35,288 nucleotides of DNA from Puniceicoccaceae bacterium (GTDB taxonomy: Bacteria > Verrucomicrobiota > Verrucomicrobiia > Opitutales > Coraliomargaritaceae), in the NCBI GenBank assembly GCA_902587165.1, contig CACIKF010000012.1, positions 1-35,288 on the forward strand, read 5' to 3'. The notes under the pieces are model-generated. The model was not told where the DNA came from and did not search any database. It saw only the letters and a program-made list of their open reading frames with translations. Of this stretch, positions 5,042 through 13,082 are shown one piece after another (the stretch's first letter is position 1; every line of letters begins with the position of its first letter). The translations under genes were made by a program, and so were the position numbers.

Positions 5042-5434
5042 TTATGTATTATTATGCCCATGCATGGCGAGCGAAAGCCCAAACCAAACCGCTAGCATGC
5101 CAAAGGCAATACTGCCCGCGGCATAGGCACCTGCTAGTGTGCCCTCACCCGCGCGCACCAGATCAAGGACTTGCCAACTAAAGGTCGAAAAAGTGGTGTA
5201 GCCCCCGCAGAAACCTGTGATCCAGAAATGCCACCTGCAGGATCTAGGCGAGAAGGCACCGTCATTGGCCCAGACTCCGGCCAAGTAGCCGATCACTAAG
5301 GAGCCACTCACATTAATCAAAAAGGTCGAGACGGGGAATGCGGCCAGACCAACATTAAGCGCCAATAAATCTAGCAAATAGCGCAAGCAGCCACCTAATC
5401 CGCTACCGAGCCCAAGCCAAAGAAGCTGCCTCAT
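5042..5434 (-). CDS. crcB: CrcB/Fluc fluoride channel, second copy
   Basis: Fluc channels export fluoride ions through the inner membrane. I place the start at the ATG at 5434, inside a longer open frame, because it overlaps the stop of the upstream crcB by 4 bp (ATGA), has GGAGGGG just upstream, and gives the typical N terminus [19 protein letters not shown]. The resulting 130 residues fit the family. Four hydrophobic segments and the signature [13 protein letters not shown] (pore Phe/Thr/Ser residues) are present. Together with its neighbour it could form a heterodimer, as known for paired fluc genes, in contrast to single-gene dual-topology homodimers. Confidence 0.92.
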
Positions 5435-5880
5435 TGGGTAAGCCCCTCCCCTATGGAATAGCCACTGAACACACAAAAGACACAGAGCAGCACACTACCC
5501 AGAATGTTAGCGAGCGCTTTACCCCAGGCCTGTTTAGAAATGAGCGAAAAAGTCTGAAGACTGAAAGTCGAAAAGGTCGTCAACCCGCCACAAAAACCAA
5601 GCGCAGAAAATGCGTAGGCACCATTAGAGGATAGCCAAAGCTCTTTTGCTACGAAGCCACTACCTAAAAAAAAGCCCAATAAAAAACTGCCGACCGCATT
5701 GACGACCAAGGTGCCCCATGGAAAACCTTCGCCGAAGAATTTGGCGATCAATAGTGTCCCCAGATAACGGAACACCCCACCGAGGGCACATCCTATGAAT
5801 GTGAGTAGAATAAGCACGACTCTTGCTTGGCGTGTAAGTAGCCTGCTGTAAAGCCTACCATTTTTGCGACCAGAGTCCAT
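5431..5880 (-). CDS. crcB: CrcB/Fluc fluoride channel, first copy
   Basis: This 149-residue membrane protein shows GCALGGVFRYLG near the N terminus, VNAVGSFLLGFFLG in the second helix region and the signature GFCGGLTTFSTFSLQ, all typical of Fluc. The N terminus (MDSGRKNGRLYSRLLTRQAR) is longer and more basic than usual. A GTG 21 codons downstream could be the true start, but its ribosome-binding site is poor. It is the first gene of a two-gene unit with the second crcB, overlapping by 4 bp. The divergent small basic protein gene lies upstream. No fluoride-riboswitch consensus could be recognised in the upstream region. Confidence 0.9.
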   Translation of the reverse strand: MDSGRKNGRLYSRLLTRQARVVLILLTFIGCALGGVFRYLGTLLIAKFFGEGFPWGTLVVNAVGSFLLGFFLGSGFVAKELWLSSNGAYAFSALGFCGGLTTFSTFSLQTFSLISKQAWGKALANILGSVLLCVFCVFSGYSIGEGLTQ

Positions 5881-6436: not shown

Positions 6437-6789
<353 letters not shown>

Positions 6790-6873
6790 AGTTTTTATGG
6801 GGCTTCAGGGGCTATAGCCAAATTATTGCCCGATTATTGCCCATATTTTGATGGGCGTATTGAAATCATTTAT

Positions 6874-7680
6874 CTACTCCCGCCTTCGCCAAAAAGCATA
6901 TCCGAGGGCGCTTACACCAATTATGAGTGCATAAATCGAAGGTTCGGGTACAGAGCTGACCTCAAAGTTGTCGAATCGAGCTGTGTTTAGTGTGTAATTT
7001 GAATACAGGTTGATATAGTTTTGGCTCGTGTTTGACCAAGAGAACGCCCCAGTCTTGACAATACTATCATTAACGGAGGCTTCGTAATTCACATTAGTAC
7101 CTACATTAAAATCAGAAAAACTATGGAATCTCACTGAGATATTCGCTTCCGAACCTAGATTAATTGTTTGTTGAAAATCCTGTGTTCCCCCAAGAAAAAC
7201 TTTAATCTCAGTTGTACCAGTAGGATCATATCCAATAAAAAAATCTGATGTGAAAGTGCTAGGATTATTAGCAGACCAATTAGTGAGATCGCCCAGTGTA
7301 TTTCCGACCGAAAAGCCACTGAAGCGTGTACCGCCTGTACTTCCTAAATTGATCAAATCCACCGAAACGGTAAATTCGCCTGAATTGTAAATCTGGCTAT
7401 CCGTGAAGTTGTGGTTCATCCAAGCGATTGACCATCCGCCTGCGGCACTAAATTCACCAAGTTGTAATTGATTGCTTACGATCTCTGGAGAGCCTTGGTG
7501 AGAAATCTCATTCCAACTGACGTGGGCCAAACTGCCAGATTTGCCAGTACCATCAGCGTTTAAATTTGTGTTATTAGTTCGATTGAAAGTATCACTTATA
7601 AGCACATTTATACTGCCCTGAGCTGCGCTAGCTAAAGTAAGATAAAATAAAACTAAGTGTGAGAATCTCAAATTATTCAT
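6874..7680 (-). CDS. PEP-CTERM sorting domain protein
   Basis: The protein (268 residues) opens with a signal peptide (MNNLRFSHLVLFYLTLASAAQG). A long beta-rich, Asn/Ser/Thr-rich domain follows, with a laminin-G/concanavalin-like pattern (SDTFNRTNNTNLN, WSIAWMNHNF, ARFDNFEV). The C terminus is a clear PEP-CTERM signal: VPEP, a hydrophobic segment (SIYALIIGVSALGYAFW) and RRRE. In the family, exosortase cuts at this signal and the protein is delivered to the surface or exopolysaccharide matrix. No exosortase gene is in the window, so it must act from elsewhere. The gene is AT-rich relative to flanking core genes and lies just inside the ssrA attachment repeat, consistent with acquisition. Substrate or ligand unknown. 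Confidence 0.88.
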   Translation of the reverse strand: MNNLRFSHLVLFYLTLASAAQGSINVLISDTFNRTNNTNLNADGTGKSGSLAHVSWNEISHQGSPEIVSNQLQLGEFSAAGGWSIAWMNHNFTDSQIYNSGEFTVSVDLINLGSTGGTRFSGFSVGNTLGDLTNWSANNPSTFTSDFFIGYDPTGTTEIKVFLGGTQDFQQTINLGSEANISVRFHSFSDFNVGTNVNYEASVNDSIVKTGAFSWSNTSQNYINLYSNYTLNTARFDNFEVSSVPEPSIYALIIGVSALGYAFWRRRE

Positions 7681-7761: not shown

Positions 7762-7826
7762 TTTTTCTAAGGCCCTTGATGTATGTACACACCATCAAGA
7801 GACCAGCCAAGCGAACCCCCGCCCCA
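7762..7826. repeat. Dispersed ~63-bp repeat, copy 1
   Basis: This stretch recurs at 10178-10240. It includes CTTGATG and CATCAAG arms, able to form a hairpin, then a highly conserved AGAGACCAGCCAAGCGAACC and a C-rich tail. Copy 1 sits in the 160-bp gap between the two minus-strand PEP-CTERM genes. The block shared between the two copies is nearly identical, with changes confined to the hairpin-loop region. It has no coding sense and is not an IS I recognise. Confidence 0.8.
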
Positions 7827-7840
7827 GCAAATAGGAAGCA

Positions 7841-8485
7841 TTAACGCCTACAAAGAGTTACAAGCCCAAGGGCTAGACCTCCGAGTAGTAGGGCGTAGCT
7901 GGATGGTTCGGGGACAATAACCAATTCAATCAATGTAGTCCTCAAGTTTGGTTCGGCGGTTTCAAACTCGTTCGTGTATCTACCAATATTAAAATTATGA
8001 AAAGATGCGTTTGCGGAGTAATCTGATAAATCAATAACTGCAGTTCCACTGATTTGATAATCAGCACCAACTTGCAGAGACGTTGCGTCAACACCTTCTT
8101 CAGCCTTGAGCCTGAAATCATCATTAAAACTTAGTTCGTCGGGACCAGTATCACCGAGAGTGTCATCGTCAATCATGACACCCACAATCTTAAAATCCTC
8201 GCCCACATCCTGCTGCACTACAACTTCGCCTATCAAAGGTATTGTCCAGGCTTCATTGGGGTATCCATTATTGTCGATACCCGTAACAAAATCACCACTC
8301 CAACCTGTCCTACCACGAATTAAGGAGCCTCGATAAGCTCGCTCCCAGGTTCCTCCTCCGCTAAATTCGAGCTTTATCAGATTTGGTGCATTTCCTAAAT
8401 CAACTGGAGATATATAAATGGTCATACCATTTGAAGGACCTACTAAGAGGGTAATAAAAGCAATTAGCAAAAAGGTAGATTTCAT
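7841..8485 (-). CDS. PEP-CTERM sorting domain protein
   Basis: I take the start at 8485, where MKSTFLLIAFITLLVGPSNG gives a normal signal peptide. The open frame extends 42 codons upstream, but that part (with CCTYVGWGRKN) is not signal-like. The mature part (about 170 residues) is beta-rich and acidic, with GGTWERAYRGSLIRGRTGWSG and IGEVVVQQDVGEDFKIVGVM. The end shows the sorting signal VPEPSSYALLLGGLALGLVTLCRR: PEP motif, hydrophobic helix and basic tail. It is probably exported and exosortase-processed. It is the second such protein in the 3.6-kb segment between the two ssrA-derived repeats. Function of the mature domain is unknown. No obvious Shine-Dalgarno sequence precedes the chosen start. 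Confidence 0.85.
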   Translation of the reverse strand: MKSTFLLIAFITLLVGPSNGMTIYISPVDLGNAPNLIKLEFSGGGTWERAYRGSLIRGRTGWSGDFVTGIDNNGYPNEAWTIPLIGEVVVQQDVGEDFKIVGVMIDDDTLGDTGPDELSFNDDFRLKAEEGVDATSLQVGADYQISGTAVIDLSDYSANASFHNFNIGRYTNEFETAEPNLRTTLIELVIVPEPSSYALLLGGLALGLVTLCRR

Positions 8486-8762
8486 ACCAATTCGGTAAGC
8501 ATCACTAGTAAATCTAGCAACCTTAAACCCATCGAGGCTGTAATTTTTTCGACCCCACCCAACGTATGTACAACATCCAGCAGCATCCATCAAAATACCC
8601 CGTCCTTGCACAAGGATTCTGACCTAGGAGTCCCTACAAGCCCTTTGCGTTTCTATTTAGGGGAGTGGAAAGGGAACAGTTTAGGTAAGCGTACGGAGAG
8701 AAATAGGTACGATTATTTCATCTCGTTGATTGAAATATAAATAGTTAGCTATCTATTGTAAG

Positions 8763-10151
8763 ATGTTTAGAAACTTTATTATGAAATACATTTACCCAAT
8801 CTCCTTAATTTTACTGTCATCTTACCAATTATGTTTTTCTAACACTATAAGCGTTGGCAATGCTACATATACCATACCTGAAGATTGGACCACTGATTAT
8901 GCTTATACATTCAGAGCAGGAGTGAGTGATTCTTCAAACTCTAGGTATTTTGAAATAGGAACAGGATACGCATTCAGAGCTGATTATCTTCCTGATGAAG
9001 AATATAATTACGTTCAAGATACTTCAGGATTTGAGAATGGTTCGATTCAAAGCTCCGAAAGCGTATTTGCTATAATAAATAAATTAGACACTGATATCTA
9101 TCGTGCAATGCATCTAAATAACGAATGGAGAAGAGCCCACGACCCAATCTATCTAACAACATCATTAACGCCTGTTTCGTTTGTGTTATTAGCTGAGGGA
9201 GCCTACGAGAGAGTATATTCTTATACACTTATAACAGATAGTGGTATGTCCTCATTTGATAGACGCACAACTGAGACAGGTACTATCGGTATTATAATTG
9301 ATGCAGATTCAATCTCCTATTATAAAGAAGTGGAAAATAATCCTGATTATAATTCATTAACTTTGGAAGAAACTTCTACTTTATATAATATTTCTGATTC
9401 CTACACGACTAGCAATCCTCTGACTATAATCGATAAGCCCACCGATTCTGATGTTGATGGAATACCCGATGTGATTGAAACTTATCTTGGTAATGATCCT
9501 AATGATAATTCAGATGCCCAAGCATCTTTAGATGGGATACAAAGCAAGTATTCTCTAGATGAAATAGTAGACTTAAGAGCTGGCTCAACTATGATATCAG
9601 TAGAAAACGAAACTGCGACTCTGAGTATGGAAATTGAAAAAAGTTCAGATCTTTCAAATTGGACCTTTGATAGAACTACAACTGTTGACATCCCAATCGA
9701 GGATGGAGTCGAAACTCAGTTCTTCCGCTTCAAGATGGCGGATCCTGCTACTACTATTACAGTCACAGTAGGTGTAGATACAATTGCAGGACAAAATACT
9801 GGTGTATTCTATTTTAATGGAGCAGAGAAAGCAGTTCTAGAATTTGAGAAGGGTACTAAATATACCTTTATCCAAAATGACTCGTCTAATGCTACCTATG
9901 GTTCTGCAAATCATCCATTAATGTTCAGTACAGGAGCAGGTGGAGATCTTTTTGGAAACGGACATTATACGGCCGGAGTAGTTTATAAGCTAGATGGTGT
10001 TACTGTAAATATGGCAGGTTATGTAAGTGGATTTGTGGCTGCCAGTGATAGAAGAATAGAATGGACGGTATCTAGTGACGCTCCATCCACTCTTTACTAC
10101 TGGTGTCATATCCACACAGGTCAAGGAGCAGCAATGACTGTGATTGACTGA
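8763..10151 (+). CDS. Secreted protein with calcium-type repeat and C-terminal cupredoxin-like domain
   Basis: The protein has 462 residues. The first or seventh Met may start it; MKYIYPISLILLSSYQLCFS is a signal peptide either way. Residues 30-220 form a beta-rich domain I do not recognise. Residues ~228-250 (DSDVDGIPDVIETYLGNDP) are a thrombospondin-type-3-like Asp-rich, probably Ca-binding linker common in secreted Verrucomicrobia proteins. From about 335 to the end lies a plastocyanin-like domain. It has SANHPLMF supplying a His and a terminal YYWCHIHTGQGAAM in which Cys448, His451 and Met458 resemble a type-1 copper site. The Met spacing is longer than in plastocyanin. There is no PEP-CTERM tail. 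The gene is strongly AT-rich compared with the core and is island cargo. A redox or copper-binding role is inferred. Confidence 0.75.
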   Translation: MFRNFIMKYIYPISLILLSSYQLCFSNTISVGNATYTIPEDWTTDYAYTFRAGVSDSSNSRYFEIGTGYAFRADYLPDEEYNYVQDTSGFENGSIQSSESVFAIINKLDTDIYRAMHLNNEWRRAHDPIYLTTSLTPVSFVLLAEGAYERVYSYTLITDSGMSSFDRRTTETGTIGIIIDADSISYYKEVENNPDYNSLTLEETSTLYNISDSYTTSNPLTIIDKPTDSDVDGIPDVIETYLGNDPNDNSDAQASLDGIQSKYSLDEIVDLRAGSTMISVENETATLSMEIEKSSDLSNWTFDRTTTVDIPIEDGVETQFFRFKMADPATTITVTVGVDTIAGQNTGVFYFNGAEKAVLEFEKGTKYTFIQNDSSNATYGSANHPLMFSTGAGGDLFGNGHYTAGVVYKLDGVTVNMAGYVSGFVAASDRRIEWTVSSDAPSTLYYWCHIHTGQGAAMTVID

Positions 10152-10177: not shown

Positions 10178-10240
10178 TTTTTTCTAAGGCACTTGATGTA
10201 TACACATCAGCAAGAGACCAGCCAAGCGAACCCCCGCCCC
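10178..10240. repeat. Dispersed ~63-bp repeat, copy 2
   Basis: This is in the same orientation as copy 1 at 7762-7826. The hairpin region is altered (CTTGATG, then TACACATCAGCAAG), but the following AGAGACCAGCCAAGCGAACC and C-rich tail are identical. It begins 27 bp after the stop of the cupredoxin-like gene and ends about 140 bp before the second ssrA-derived repeat. The two copies enclose the second PEP-CTERM gene and the cupredoxin gene. Confidence 0.8.
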
Positions 10241-10382: not shown

Positions 10383-10418
10383 GCGGGTTCGACTCCCGCC
10401 ACCTCCACCATTTTGCCC
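10383..10418 (+). repeat. 36-bp direct repeat, second copy of ssrA 3' end (putative att junction)
   Basis: The sequence is identical to 6754-6789: GCGGGTTCGACTCCCGCC, then the acceptor strand, CCA and TTTTGCCC. It is not preceded by the rest of a tmRNA, so it is a displaced 3' end and not a second gene. It separates the PEP-CTERM/cupredoxin segment from the sigma-54 segment and suggests two tandem insertions. Confidence 0.82.
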
Positions 10419-10466
10419 GATCATTATGAGCCTGGGGTTAATGCTAAATCACTACTAATTGAATAG

Positions 10467-10685
10467 CTATCTTTGCTTATTAATTTTTAATCTTTTAATA
10501 GATTTCGTTAAATCATCCCAATTAGCAAACAAGCTACCGACTGCAAATATTGCGAGTCCGTGATGGGATGCAAAAGCCTCAAATTCGTGTAGTCCTAATT
10601 CTACAGAAATTTCCAATAGGCAGGAAATAAGTAGAATTCCGTAAGTTACTATGCCGAGGATTGGGGATTTATTGAAATCAATCAT
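10467..10685 (-). CDS. Small hypothetical membrane protein
   Basis: The protein has 72 residues. A hydrophobic segment (ILGIVTYGILLISCLLEIS) is followed by a more polar turn, a second moderately hydrophobic stretch (GLAIFAVGSLFA) and a basic C terminus (KSIKRLKINKQR). This suggests a one- or two-pass inner-membrane protein. I recognise no family. It lies in the AT-rich segment after the second ssrA-derived repeat. No clear Shine-Dalgarno sequence precedes the ATG. It could be a genuine small gene or a chance frame; length and residue pattern favour a gene. Confidence 0.5.
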   Translation of the reverse strand: MIDFNKSPILGIVTYGILLISCLLEISVELGLHEFEAFASHHGLAIFAVGSLFANWDDLTKSIKRLKINKQR

Positions 10686-10914: not shown

Positions 10915-12354
10915 CTACGAACCCCTTGGGTGACTGCTAGGATGTTTTCCATATAATTTGAGTTTTTCCCTCAATGTGAAACGTGAGACACCCAGTAAAC
11001 GTGCCGCTTTAGCTTGGTTTCCATCGGATCTCTCTATTGCCATGGTATAAACTTCCCGTTCAAACTTCTCTGTTAAAATGGGTAAAGCCGCTTCAATTTC
11101 ATTTGCTGCCACACGATTAAATTCAGATTCAATAATCTGTTTTAGCTGATCTTGTTTTTTAGCTAAAATTTTCGATTCTTTAATGATATTATCGAAATGT
11201 TCTACATCGAGGGTCGTATTTTTAGAGCTTAATAAAGCCTTACTAATTACATTCTGTAACTGCCGTATATTACCTGGCCACTCAAGCTGTGTCAGATAAT
11301 CAATCGCTTTCTTGGAAAAGTTTGGAGTCGCCAGACCGTACTCAGTGGCAAACTTCTGCAAAAAATAACTCACTAAATCAGGAATATCCTCTCGCCGATC
11401 CCTTAGAGGTGGAATGTTTATCGAGATAACATTGAGCCTATAAAATAGATCTTCACGAAATGTGCCCTCAGAAACCATTGATTCCAAATTTCTGTGCGTA
11501 GCTGCGATTATGCGAACATCTACTGGAATGTTCTTAGAACTTCCTACGCGCTGGATTGTTTTTTCCTGTAAAACACGTAGTAGTTTTACCTGTAGTGATT
11601 GATCCAAGTCGCCAATTTCATCAAGGAATATAGTGCCTCCGTGCGCTTGTTCAAATCTTCCAACTCGTAACTGGCTTGCTCCAGTAAAGGAACCTTTCTC
11701 ATGCCCAAAGAGTTCACTCTCTAGCAAGTTCTCTGGTATCGCCGCGCAATTTACGGCTACAAATCCTTCGTGTGCACGATGACCGTGCTGATAAATTGCT
11801 CGTGCAATGAGTTCTTTACCAGTTCCGGTCTCGCCTCTGACTAATACAGTCACTGTTTGTGAGGCAATTCTTCCTAGTTGCTTGTAAATATCACGCATAG
11901 CGCGACTTCGCCCAATTATTGTATCTTGATCACTAAATACCTCACCTATTTCAACTGGCTTAGAATTTAATCTCAGATCAATTAGCGCTTGGTTAATTGA
12001 ATCAAGAAGCTCCCGTGTCGTTACTGGTAACAAAAAGAAATCATAGGCCCCTGCCTTAATGATTTCTATCGCTAAGCTACTCTTCTTATTTTCGCTGAGA
12101 ACAATAATTGGAACTAAGCGCTGTATTTTTTTTATTTTCAAAAGCACAGCTAATGGCGCCAGATCATTAAGATCACTCATTACCACAATCTCTGTCCTAC
12201 AATTTTTTGAGGTCAAATGGCTATAGGCGTCATCTAGGTCATCAAAATATTCAAATCCAGAACCCTTATGCAGTAATTTTTGGATCTGTGTGCGCAGCTC
12301 TGAGCTTAAGCCTAGGTATAGTAGGTTCGTTACTGGTTTAGAATTATCATCCAT
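10915..12354 (-). CDS. Sigma-54-dependent transcriptional activator with degenerate receiver domain
   Basis: The protein (479 residues) has NtrC-type order. Residues 8-128 are a receiver-like domain, 145-380 an AAA+ sigma-54 interaction domain and ~430-470 a Fis-type helix-turn-helix. Walker A is GETGTGKE (174-181), the sigma-54 contact loop is GSFTGA (221-226, a variant of GAFTGA) and Walker B is GGTIFLDEIGD (239-249). The DNA-binding part reads GNQAKAARLLGVSRFTLREKL. The receiver lacks the acidic pair after strand 1 (NLLYLGLSSE) and the conserved Lys (FFLLPV instead of a KP motif). Only Asp61 lies near the phosphoacceptor place, so normal phosphorylation is doubtful. No histidine kinase is adjacent. 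It is divergent from the YRG-repeat gene, which has a sigma-54 promoter, so that gene is the probable target. GAFTGA-loop divergence is mild and activity is likely. Confidence 0.92.
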   Translation of the reverse strand: MDDNSKPVTNLLYLGLSSELRTQIQKLLHKGSGFEYFDDLDDAYSHLTSKNCRTEIVVMSDLNDLAPLAVLLKIKKIQRLVPIIVLSENKKSSLAIEIIKAGAYDFFLLPVTTRELLDSINQALIDLRLNSKPVEIGEVFSDQDTIIGRSRAMRDIYKQLGRIASQTVTVLVRGETGTGKELIARAIYQHGHRAHEGFVAVNCAAIPENLLESELFGHEKGSFTGASQLRVGRFEQAHGGTIFLDEIGDLDQSLQVKLLRVLQEKTIQRVGSSKNIPVDVRIIAATHRNLESMVSEGTFREDLFYRLNVISINIPPLRDRREDIPDLVSYFLQKFATEYGLATPNFSKKAIDYLTQLEWPGNIRQLQNVISKALLSSKNTTLDVEHFDNIIKESKILAKKQDQLKQIIESEFNRVAANEIEAALPILTEKFEREVYTMAIERSDGNQAKAARLLGVSRFTLREKLKLYGKHPSSHPRGS

Positions 12355-12389
12355 CTTTTTGTCTACTTCTTATCTATCAAGGCTTACTA

Positions 12390-12426
12390 ACATAAGCAAT
12401 AGCTTATGTGGTAAATTACTTACCAC
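12390..12426. promoter_or_regulatory. Two adjoining palindromes, candidate activator (UAS) sites
   Basis: ACATAAGC-AATA-GCTTATGT (12390-12409) is a perfect inverted repeat with 8-bp arms. It shares two bases with GTGGTAA-ATTAC-TTACCAC (12408-12426), which has perfect 7-bp arms. They lie 36-72 bp upstream of the activator's start codon and roughly 125-160 bp upstream of the transcription start expected from the -24/-12 promoter at 12523. That is where NtrC-type activators usually bind. The two arms differ in sequence, so they may be two sites for one protein with relaxed specificity or sites for two proteins. Confidence 0.65.
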
Positions 12427-12522
12427 TTTAAGAGAAATCATTGACCATATAGTGCAAGTGAATTTTTTATTTTTATTTTTAAATAACTGTATATCAGTAT
12501 TTTATAATTTACAAAAAAAAAT

Positions 12523-12538
12523 TGGCACGGTGAATGCA
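12523..12538 (+). promoter_or_regulatory. Sigma-54 (-24/-12) promoter of the YRG-repeat gene
   Basis: TGGCACGGTGAATGCA matches the consensus TGGCACG-N4-TTGCA with one mismatch and exact GG-N10-GC spacing. Transcription would start about 12 bases downstream, near 12549, leaving a leader of about 33 nt before the ATG at 12582. The divergent gene encodes a sigma-54 activator. Confidence 0.85.
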
Positions 12539-12581
12539 TATATAATTACCTCTATTAAAAATCTAACCTAAACATCAAAAA

Positions 12582-12824
12582 ATGAATAATAATATCATCA
12601 ACTACAGAGGCGCAACGACTACTGCTAACGACGTAAAAGCTGGGAATCTATCTCACGCAAATTCGCTGCAAAATAATAATCCAGAACTAAGCTACCGCGG
12701 ATCACATTCCGATCATGCGAGTGTAACTGCTGGAAATCAGAAACATAACGAAGATCTTCGAAATGTTGATCCAACAATTACCTACCGCGGAGCATCTGTA
12801 AAATATTCAGAAATCCACGGATAG
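12582..12824 (+). CDS. Small YRG-repeat protein, function unknown
   Basis: The protein has 80 residues, very Asn-rich and polar, with no signal peptide or membrane segment. YRG occurs at residues 8-10, 38-40 and 68-70, an exact 30-residue period. The repeats share YRG, then a V/I, AGN, a His, a Leu, an Asp/Asn-Pro and an aliphatic residue before the next YRG. There are thus two full repeats and a short third. The YRG-plus-aromatic pattern recalls the small DUF4278 proteins known mainly from cyanobacteria, but I cannot confirm kinship. The gene has a near-consensus sigma-54 promoter and a strong terminator, so it is a dedicated single-gene transcript. Its ATG lacks a recognisable Shine-Dalgarno sequence. 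A structural, binding or peptide-precursor role is possible; none is shown. Confidence 0.82.
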   Translation: MNNNIINYRGATTTANDVKAGNLSHANSLQNNNPELSYRGSHSDHASVTAGNQKHNEDLRNVDPTITYRGASVKYSEIHG

Positions 12825-12842
12825 TACTTATCTAAAATTGCT

Positions 12843-12878
12843 AAAAAGCCGCTAAGTGTATCACTTAGCGGCTTTTTT
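12843..12878 (+). terminator. Strong rho-independent terminator after the YRG-repeat gene
   Basis: GCCGCTAAGTG (12848-12858) and CACTTAGCGGC (12862-12872) form a perfect 11-bp stem around a TAT loop. Five A precede the stem and six T follow it. It could terminate in both directions. It begins 19 bp after the stop codon. Confidence 0.93.
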
Positions 12879-13060: not shown

Positions 13061-13082
13061 ACGAATTCGACTCCTGCCACCT
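13061..13082 (+). repeat. Decayed third copy of the ssrA 3' end
   Basis: The stretch ACGAATTCGACTCCTGCCAC plus CT matches the ssrA repeat (starting GCGGGTTCGACTCCCGCCAC) at 18 of 22 positions, including TTCGACTCC and GCCACCT in register. It occurs just before msrA, where AT-rich sequence gives way to core sequence. It is most simply the original 3' end of ssrA pushed outward by insertions and now decaying. Confidence 0.6.

Follow-up and report, generated by a model that had tools for sequence, protein, structure and literature searches.

The locus examined here raises the question of whether a regulator and a single small gene standing back to back form a self-contained switch, and what such a switch might control. 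It lies in a window of 35,288 nucleotides (the whole stretch of DNA that was analysed), which is positions 1-35,288 of the forward strand of contig CACIKF010000012.1, assembly GCA_902587165.1, from Puniceicoccaceae bacterium (Verrucomicrobiota; Opitutales; Coraliomargaritaceae). In it a gene for a sigma-54 activator (bacterial enhancer-binding protein) is divergent from a gene for a small protein with repeated YRG motifs. Some marine and other Verrucomicrobiota carry what reads as a compact unit, made up of this activator, its likely DNA site, and one small-protein gene. Our interpretation, with the balance between right and wrong about even, is that the unit is a sigma-54 switch devoted to one gene, which encodes a DUF4278 adaptor, and that it probably has a link to nitrogen status.

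The original prediction of an NtrC-type activator divergent from a small gene was confirmed. The activator has 479 residues (10915-12354, minus strand) and consists of a degenerate-looking receiver, an AAA+ domain, and a Fis-type helix-turn-helix (HTH), while the small gene encodes 80 residues (12582-12824, plus strand). Between them lie the predicted activator binding site, a 19-bp palindrome of the form GTGGTAA-N5-TTACCAC (12408-12426), and a -24/-12 (sigma-54) promoter, TTGGCACGGTGAATGCA (12522-12538, plus strand), with a predicted start near 12549. A predicted intrinsic terminator hairpin follows the small gene (12843-12877, plus strand).

The joint conservation of these parts supports the view that they form one module. 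Nine distinct loci, the window and eight relatives, have a confident relative of the small protein, and in all nine the activator is its divergent neighbor, which contradicts the idea that such activators are never found beside YRG genes. No search for relatives used the activator as query. Six loci, each with a full-length relative (64-99% identical), were obtained by scanning contigs with two aligned small proteins. A protein search of 132 genomes in the order added genome G124. The 384 genomes of the class were searched with Pfam DUF4278, which yielded G193 (locus L006), and with a hidden Markov model (HMM) built from proteins that included those of the window, G124, and G193, which yielded G313 (L041). 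L013 and the G124 locus (L002, L005) are one contig and were counted once. The four lineages compared are the window clade, G124, G313, and G193, and the loci include close marine relatives and reach as far as a different order within the class. Activator identity to the window is 99, 97, 97, 97, 90, 75, 70, and 46%, and small-protein identity, which has the same ranking, is 99, 98, 98, 95, 81, 64, 50, and 33%. The palindrome at 12408-12426 is exact in all nine loci, and TTGGCA and ATGC of the promoter are kept in all nine. The gap between palindrome and promoter motif is 93-95 bp in eight loci and 107 bp in G193.

The module is sporadic, with confident examples in four of the 384 class genomes. 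The exact palindrome-promoter pattern occurs in three of the 384, each time at the module, and the reversed pattern in none; the promoter of G313, TTGGCATA, does not have the G that the pattern required, so this genome was missed. An HMM search found no relative of the small protein in three genomes of the same genus. A second HMM search, with a model of all nine proteins, gave a match in three of 387 genomes of the phylum, a set that overlaps the class sample. Of nine genomes matched in the HMM search of the class, five had weak small-protein matches (E 0.03-0.04, L033-L037) with no activator relative in the searched loci; these were treated as chance, as was a DUF4278 match in G200 (E 0.0055, L004 and L007), for the same lack of an activator relative in its searched loci.

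Conservation also separates the two palindromes that had been proposed as abutting operators. Both are present upstream of the small gene, at about -159 to -123 from the start near 12549, and they overlap by two bases. By themselves they are unremarkable, since palindromes with arms of at least 7 arose in 109 of 300 shuffles of the AT-rich intergenic gap; it is conservation that marks 12408-12426 as a real site. The other (12390-12409, 8-bp arms) is not conserved in relatives and is probably incidental, so the idea of two operators does not hold, and co-occurrence of the gene pair with promoter and palindrome extends to 12408-12426 only. In a count of 12 genomes, the exact 19-bp palindrome occurs once each in the window's genome (G000), G124, and G193, always at the module, and in none of the other nine. 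Allowing up to two mismatches, it is no commoner than a reversed control in any of the 12 (4 against 8 in G000), and such near-matches carry no meaning.

The promoter has the best -24/-12 score in the window, with 12 of 13 consensus positions, in agreement with the predicted single mismatch. In the reversed window no site scores 12 and three score 11. The window's genome has a gene for RpoN, and the small gene very probably depends on sigma-54. A wider regulon was considered and rejected. A strict promoter pattern gave two sites in G000 (control 0), three in G124 (control 1), and three in G193 (control 2); the G193 module site, which has C as its last base, is not one of these three. The second G000 site lies 105 nt before a gene for a UVR-motif protein, with no palindrome in the examined locus. 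As a separate observation, G313 has 12 strict sites (control 2), several of them directly before proteins that look secreted by eye (L067, L071, L074, L076, L082), and three of its sites are identical, TTGGCACAAAAGTTGCA, before similar proteins. These sites are possibly a sigma-54 surface-protein regulon outside Proteobacteria; in the portions of Haft 2006 that deal with these motifs, the sigma-54 motifs of PEP-CTERM genes are found in Proteobacteria only (PMC1569441).

The terminator predicted after the small gene is likewise supported. Its minimum free energy is -23.5 kcal/mol, with a folding z of -8.4 and none of 200 shuffles as good, and the stem shows a compensatory change in L009-L012. 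The L012 terminator has a z of -7.2, and the G313 stretch, whose T-run is outside the part tested, has a z of -2.3 (6 of 200 shuffles as good). With all parts kept together in nine loci, the proposal of a self-contained module of activator, site, promoter, and one gene stands, and its regulatory anatomy is well supported as far as sequence alone allows.

The product of 10915-12354 belongs to the sigma-54 activators. It has the activator domain over the cut-off (Pfam Sigma54_activat, E 1.3e-74, 249.9 bits against 20.2), a GAFTGA-type loop, and the Fis-type HTH (HTH_8, E 2.4e-12, 46.8 bits against 22). Walker A, the loop, Walker B, and the HTH are intact in the activators, the loop reading GSFTGA in the window and L008-L011 and GAFTGA in L012, L013, L041, and L006. 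NtrC (TIGR01818), whose domain order it has, is the best NCBIfam match at 422.2 bits, below the cut-off of 558.6; PrsR (PEP_resp_reg, TIGR02915) is second at 389.8 bits, below 502.6. In PADLOC, three models of RtcR/PspF matched it (best E 1.3e-118), in the AAA+ and HTH regions that such activators have in common.

The receiver of the activator looks degenerate. Its Response_reg match in the window is 27.6 bits, under the cut-off of 30.2. In the nine-sequence alignment, the phosphoacceptor column (59) holds M in four sequences, I in two, T and A in one each, and E in G193, and the conserved-Lys column (109) is L in eight sequences, with K present in G193. Unlike NtrC, the aligned receivers have no Asp in the acceptor column, and none has the NtrC-type pair of Asp and Lys. 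The register was taken from the alignment and from a match to a solved NtrC-family protein, whose Asp, by our reading, faces the same window residue. The usual switching by a histidine kinase appears unlikely.

The small protein is under purifying selection, as judged from its coding sequences. The ratio of nonsynonymous to synonymous substitution rates (dN/dS) against the window is 0.29, 0.14, 0.08, 0.25, and 0.18 for L008 to L012, where 0.29 rests on two differences; synonymous sites are saturated in the two 80-residue relatives that are more distant. The 30-residue repeats are exact in length only, and not in sequence as had been stated, with units 1 and 2 identical at 11 of 30 residues. 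YRG is not merely a common tripeptide, since it is absent from 7,800 residues of 20 hand-picked window proteins. The product had been described as having no recognised function; in the sense of lacking a family this does not hold, since all nine proteins match Pfam DUF4278 (PF14105) and no other Pfam family. The G193 protein is over the cut-off (32.1 bits against 25.3, E 1.5e-7), and it aligns with the other eight over three YRG sites. AlphaFold, given the nine-sequence alignment, predicted units of strand, YRG turn, strand, and helix; the best model has a mean local confidence (pLDDT) of 88.5 with a low global score (pTM 0.52), and the other four models have 69.5-76.2. In a fold comparison of this model, none of 34 PDB matches and none of 209 viral matches reached E <= 0.001, and a sequence search for solved relatives gave one match, at E 0.87.

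The family and the genomic context of one relative suggest a link to nitrogen. In G193, a P-II gene (E 1e-32) lies 63 nt after the DUF4278 gene on the same strand, and the gap has no terminator-like or sigma-70-like site on that strand. With four P-II matches in 5.9 Mb, a neighbor by chance is unlikely; we estimate odds of roughly one in a thousand. In the same genome, a sigma-54-like site (11/13, L058:1408-1424) starts 93 bp before another P-II gene; it is weak, and chance can also produce such scores. Two reviews on cyanobacteria describe DUF4278 as the N-terminal part of IF17 (GifB), an inhibitor of glutamine synthetase, and place glutamine riboswitches mainly upstream of DUF4278 genes (PMC6316151; PMC7760959). 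An earlier report, in the sections that treat them, describes the glnA and Downstream-peptide RNAs first as riboswitch candidates, with glnA beside clear nitrogen genes and with both apparently lowering expression on nitrogen depletion (PMC2864571). The module proteins resemble IF17 as small proteins with YRG units, and they differ in having three spaced units, no further domain, and a sigma-54-type promoter in place of NtcA and a glutamine riboswitch. Near the module in the window, L005, and L006, a search of Rfam at the gathering threshold found only tmRNA, two tRNAs, and 6S RNA, and thus neither a glutamine riboswitch nor another such RNA.

A dedicated one-gene switch for a DUF4278 adaptor would work as follows. 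The activator would bind the 19-bp palindrome, which ends 93-107 bp before the promoter motif, and would contact the RNA polymerase-sigma-54 complex by DNA looping. The result would be a single short transcript, stopped by its own terminator; in G193 it apparently continues into the P-II gene. The input to the activator would be its abundance, a ligand, or a protein partner, and probably not a histidine kinase, because the receiver is without the residues usual for phosphorylation. The product would be a small soluble chain of hairpin-helix DUF4278 units, most likely a protein-binding adaptor in the control of nitrogen assimilation, as proposed for cyanobacterial DUF4278 proteins. Nitrogen control is the leading guess for the function, from the family and the one P-II neighbor, and the chance that the module has such a link falls just short of even. 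That the small protein itself binds glutamine synthetase or a P-II partner is doubtful.

Several results weigh against this interpretation. The window protein is below the DUF4278 cut-off (22.1 bits against 25.3, E 2e-4), and a DUF4278 search of the window's whole genome gave no match at E 0.01. The P-II neighbor is found in one of the four lineages; in the other three (G000, G124, and G313) the P-II matches are away from the module. Of the nine P-II loci in these four genomes, only the one at the G193 module has the exact palindrome in the examined flanks. The eight 80-residue proteins are neutral to acidic (isoelectric points 5.3-7.0, charge -2.4 to -0.1) and lack the basic, Arg-rich character of IF7 and IF17; they are therefore not inactivating factors (IFs) as such. 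Nitrogen excess is the condition in which IF17 and PMM1846 are made, but starvation is what turns on many sigma-54 nitrogen genes. One report states that IFs are rich in residues such as arginine and that the N-terminal part of IF17 is dispensable for function (PMC6316151). Eight of the nine receivers have a Ser-Asp pair one and two residues past the acceptor column, and this conserved D61, two past the aligned acceptor, leaves some doubt, as a shifted phosphorylation site would be possible. The activator of G193 also has a histidine kinase and a LuxR-type regulator as neighbors.

The alternative that survives best is a feedback loop like that of Psp, in which the small protein would restrain its own activator and be released by envelope or other stress, with nitrogen uninvolved. 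PspF and pspA have a divergent activator, a common intergenic enhancer, and a sigma-54 promoter, and PspF is not switched by phosphorylation of a receiver. The same layout, with one common intergenic palindrome and a -24/-12 promoter, is found in all nine loci, and the altered receiver makes another input likely. The activator (90, 75, 70, 46%) and the small protein (81, 64, 50, 33%) also diverge in the same order. However, PspF has no receiver-like domain, and its target is a different protein. The product here matches DUF4278 and no other family, and together with the P-II neighbor this points elsewhere. A Psp-like loop is unlikely.

A second alternative is that the module is cargo of phage or island origin and that the protein serves the mobile element, not nitrogen control. 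The window had been described as carrying the module as cargo in an island at ssrA, and the evidence on this is divided. The 3' end of ssrA (6437-6781) recurs exactly, with flank, as an att-like 36-bp copy at 10383-10418 (plus strand), and a 17-bp piece at 13066-13082 (plus strand, 16 of 17 identical, E 0.17) is a doubtful second, decayed or due to chance. Pieces like ssrA bracket the module in four of the nine loci, namely the window (counting the doubtful piece), L010, L011, and G313; in the last three they are 20-27 bp long, and in G313 they are 12.5 kb apart. G313 also has a phage-integrase fragment beside the module, and no tRNA or tmRNA gene in the examined stretches. The bracketing is absent in L005, L006, L008, L009, and L012, some of which are short contigs. 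A scan of six window proteins encoded between ssrA and 13082 found no integrase. Genome G010 does not have the module, and the 1.5 kb before its msrA contains neither ssrA nor a clear ssrA-like piece.

The island part of that description is plausible on these data, with bracketing in four loci and an integrase fragment in one on one side, and the lack of an integrase among the scanned window proteins and the bare msrA of G010 on the other. The sporadic distribution and the absence from three genomes of the same genus fit mobile cargo, as do weak matches (best E 4e-4) of all nine proteins to the functionally uncharacterised phage family phrog_5049. Among viral folds, a 56-residue protein of cyanophage S-PM2 ranks first (E 0.16, not significant), and cyanophages may carry related proteins. 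In contrast, no relative was found in viral contigs by a pattern scan or in plasmids, none was confident in phages (best E 0.7), and the small protein had no PADLOC match. The window and L008-L011 also have a common msrA and serC flank. A role in serving a mobile element is distinctly unlikely. Four viral contigs with the palindrome and TTGGCA were set aside as chance; they have no GC at -12, no activator, and a best small-protein E of 0.99.

A role at the cell surface, with a PrsR-like activator and a small protein accessory to PEP-CTERM or exopolysaccharide production, is improbable. PEP_resp_reg is the second-best NCBIfam match, two PEP-CTERM genes are found no more than about 4 kb from the activator gene, and sigma-54-like sites precede secreted-looking proteins in G313. 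Against this, the activator score is under the PrsR cut-off of 502.6, the small protein has no signal or sorting domain match, and the exact palindrome is found at a single place in G000. Five scanned flanking proteins (L009, L012, and two in L041 of G313) and the G193 kinase are not PEP-CTERM proteins by Pfam. As described in parts of one report, the PrsR system resembles the module in its NtrC-like activator, a motif upstream of a -24/-12 site, and single-gene units (PMC1569441). The same parts give it many targets, a PrsK partner, a home in Proteobacteria, and a motif 1 that ends in TTTACA at a mean of 63 nt (maximum 92) from the promoter motif (PMC1569441), whereas the module has a gap of 93-107 bp and one exact site in each of three genomes counted.

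A bolder idea, that YRG-repeat (DUF4278) proteins act as multivalent mimics of the T-loop of P-II, is highly improbable. Each repeat would present a hairpin tip, mostly YRG-[A/S], that resembles the P-II tip TEIYRGSEY, and one small protein, produced on demand through a sigma-54 switch, would occupy several P-II partners simultaneously. This would explain both the glutamine control of cyanobacterial DUF4278 genes and the P-II neighbor in G193. The tip reads TEIYRGSEY in eight P-II proteins (the ninth match, L064, is not in this reading). Homology to the T-loop was rejected, as only the YRG site aligned (P 0.076, probability 0.7%), which is not evidence of homology.

Other features near the module were also recorded. 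A 72-residue open reading frame (ORF; 10467-10685, minus strand), which has no Pfam family, accompanies the module in close relatives and is not part of its core; tblastn matched it only in L008-L011, with 92-96% identity, and in L012 the contig stops too close to the activator for a judgment. A glucose/sorbosone dehydrogenase-domain protein of 764-767 residues is beside the module in L012 (2331-4625, minus strand) and upstream in L009 (749-3052, minus strand). The repeat at the end of ssrA reaches past the gene, joining 6754-6823 and 10383-10449 with 81% identity over 70 bp, and a second repeat of 64 bp (92%) joins 7762-7825 and 10179-10240; the stretch between therefore looks like an inserted segment. 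Between ssrA and the repeat are two PEP-CTERM proteins and a 462-residue protein without a family over the cut-off (6874-7680, minus strand; 7841-8611, minus strand; 8763-10151, plus strand). Two adjoining small ORFs at 5042-5880 (minus strand) presumably encode a paired CrcB-type fluoride channel.

The module was said to have no described counterpart, and this is so only in part. A one-gene regulon adjoining its sigma-54 activator is a known architecture, and what is new is the small-protein cargo and its spread. No description of the activator and small-protein pair was present among the literature matches listed on sigma-54, NtrC, or nitrogen regulation in Verrucomicrobia, in a search whose coverage excludes most subscription journals. 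In that literature, nothing was found on Puniceicoccaceae and RpoN, the matches listed for a YRG repeat or motif all concern plant genes by title, DUF4278 appears in cyanobacteria only, and PF14105 was not found.

Overall, the parts of the module, their joint conservation, the selection on the protein, the altered receiver, and the family link are read from sequence, and they suggest how binding of the palindrome by the activator could control a single gene. DUF4278 is a domain of unknown function that has been linked in cyanobacteria to glutamine sensing and to the control of glutamine synthetase. Its presence in a different phylum, where it comes with an activator of its own and a fixed enhancer-like site and has a P-II neighbor in one case, would provide an independent genetic handle on its function, and the small size of the unit permits testing in a laboratory host. 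The design, with a single site, a single gene, and an altered receiver, may also offer a clean case for learning how such activators are switched.

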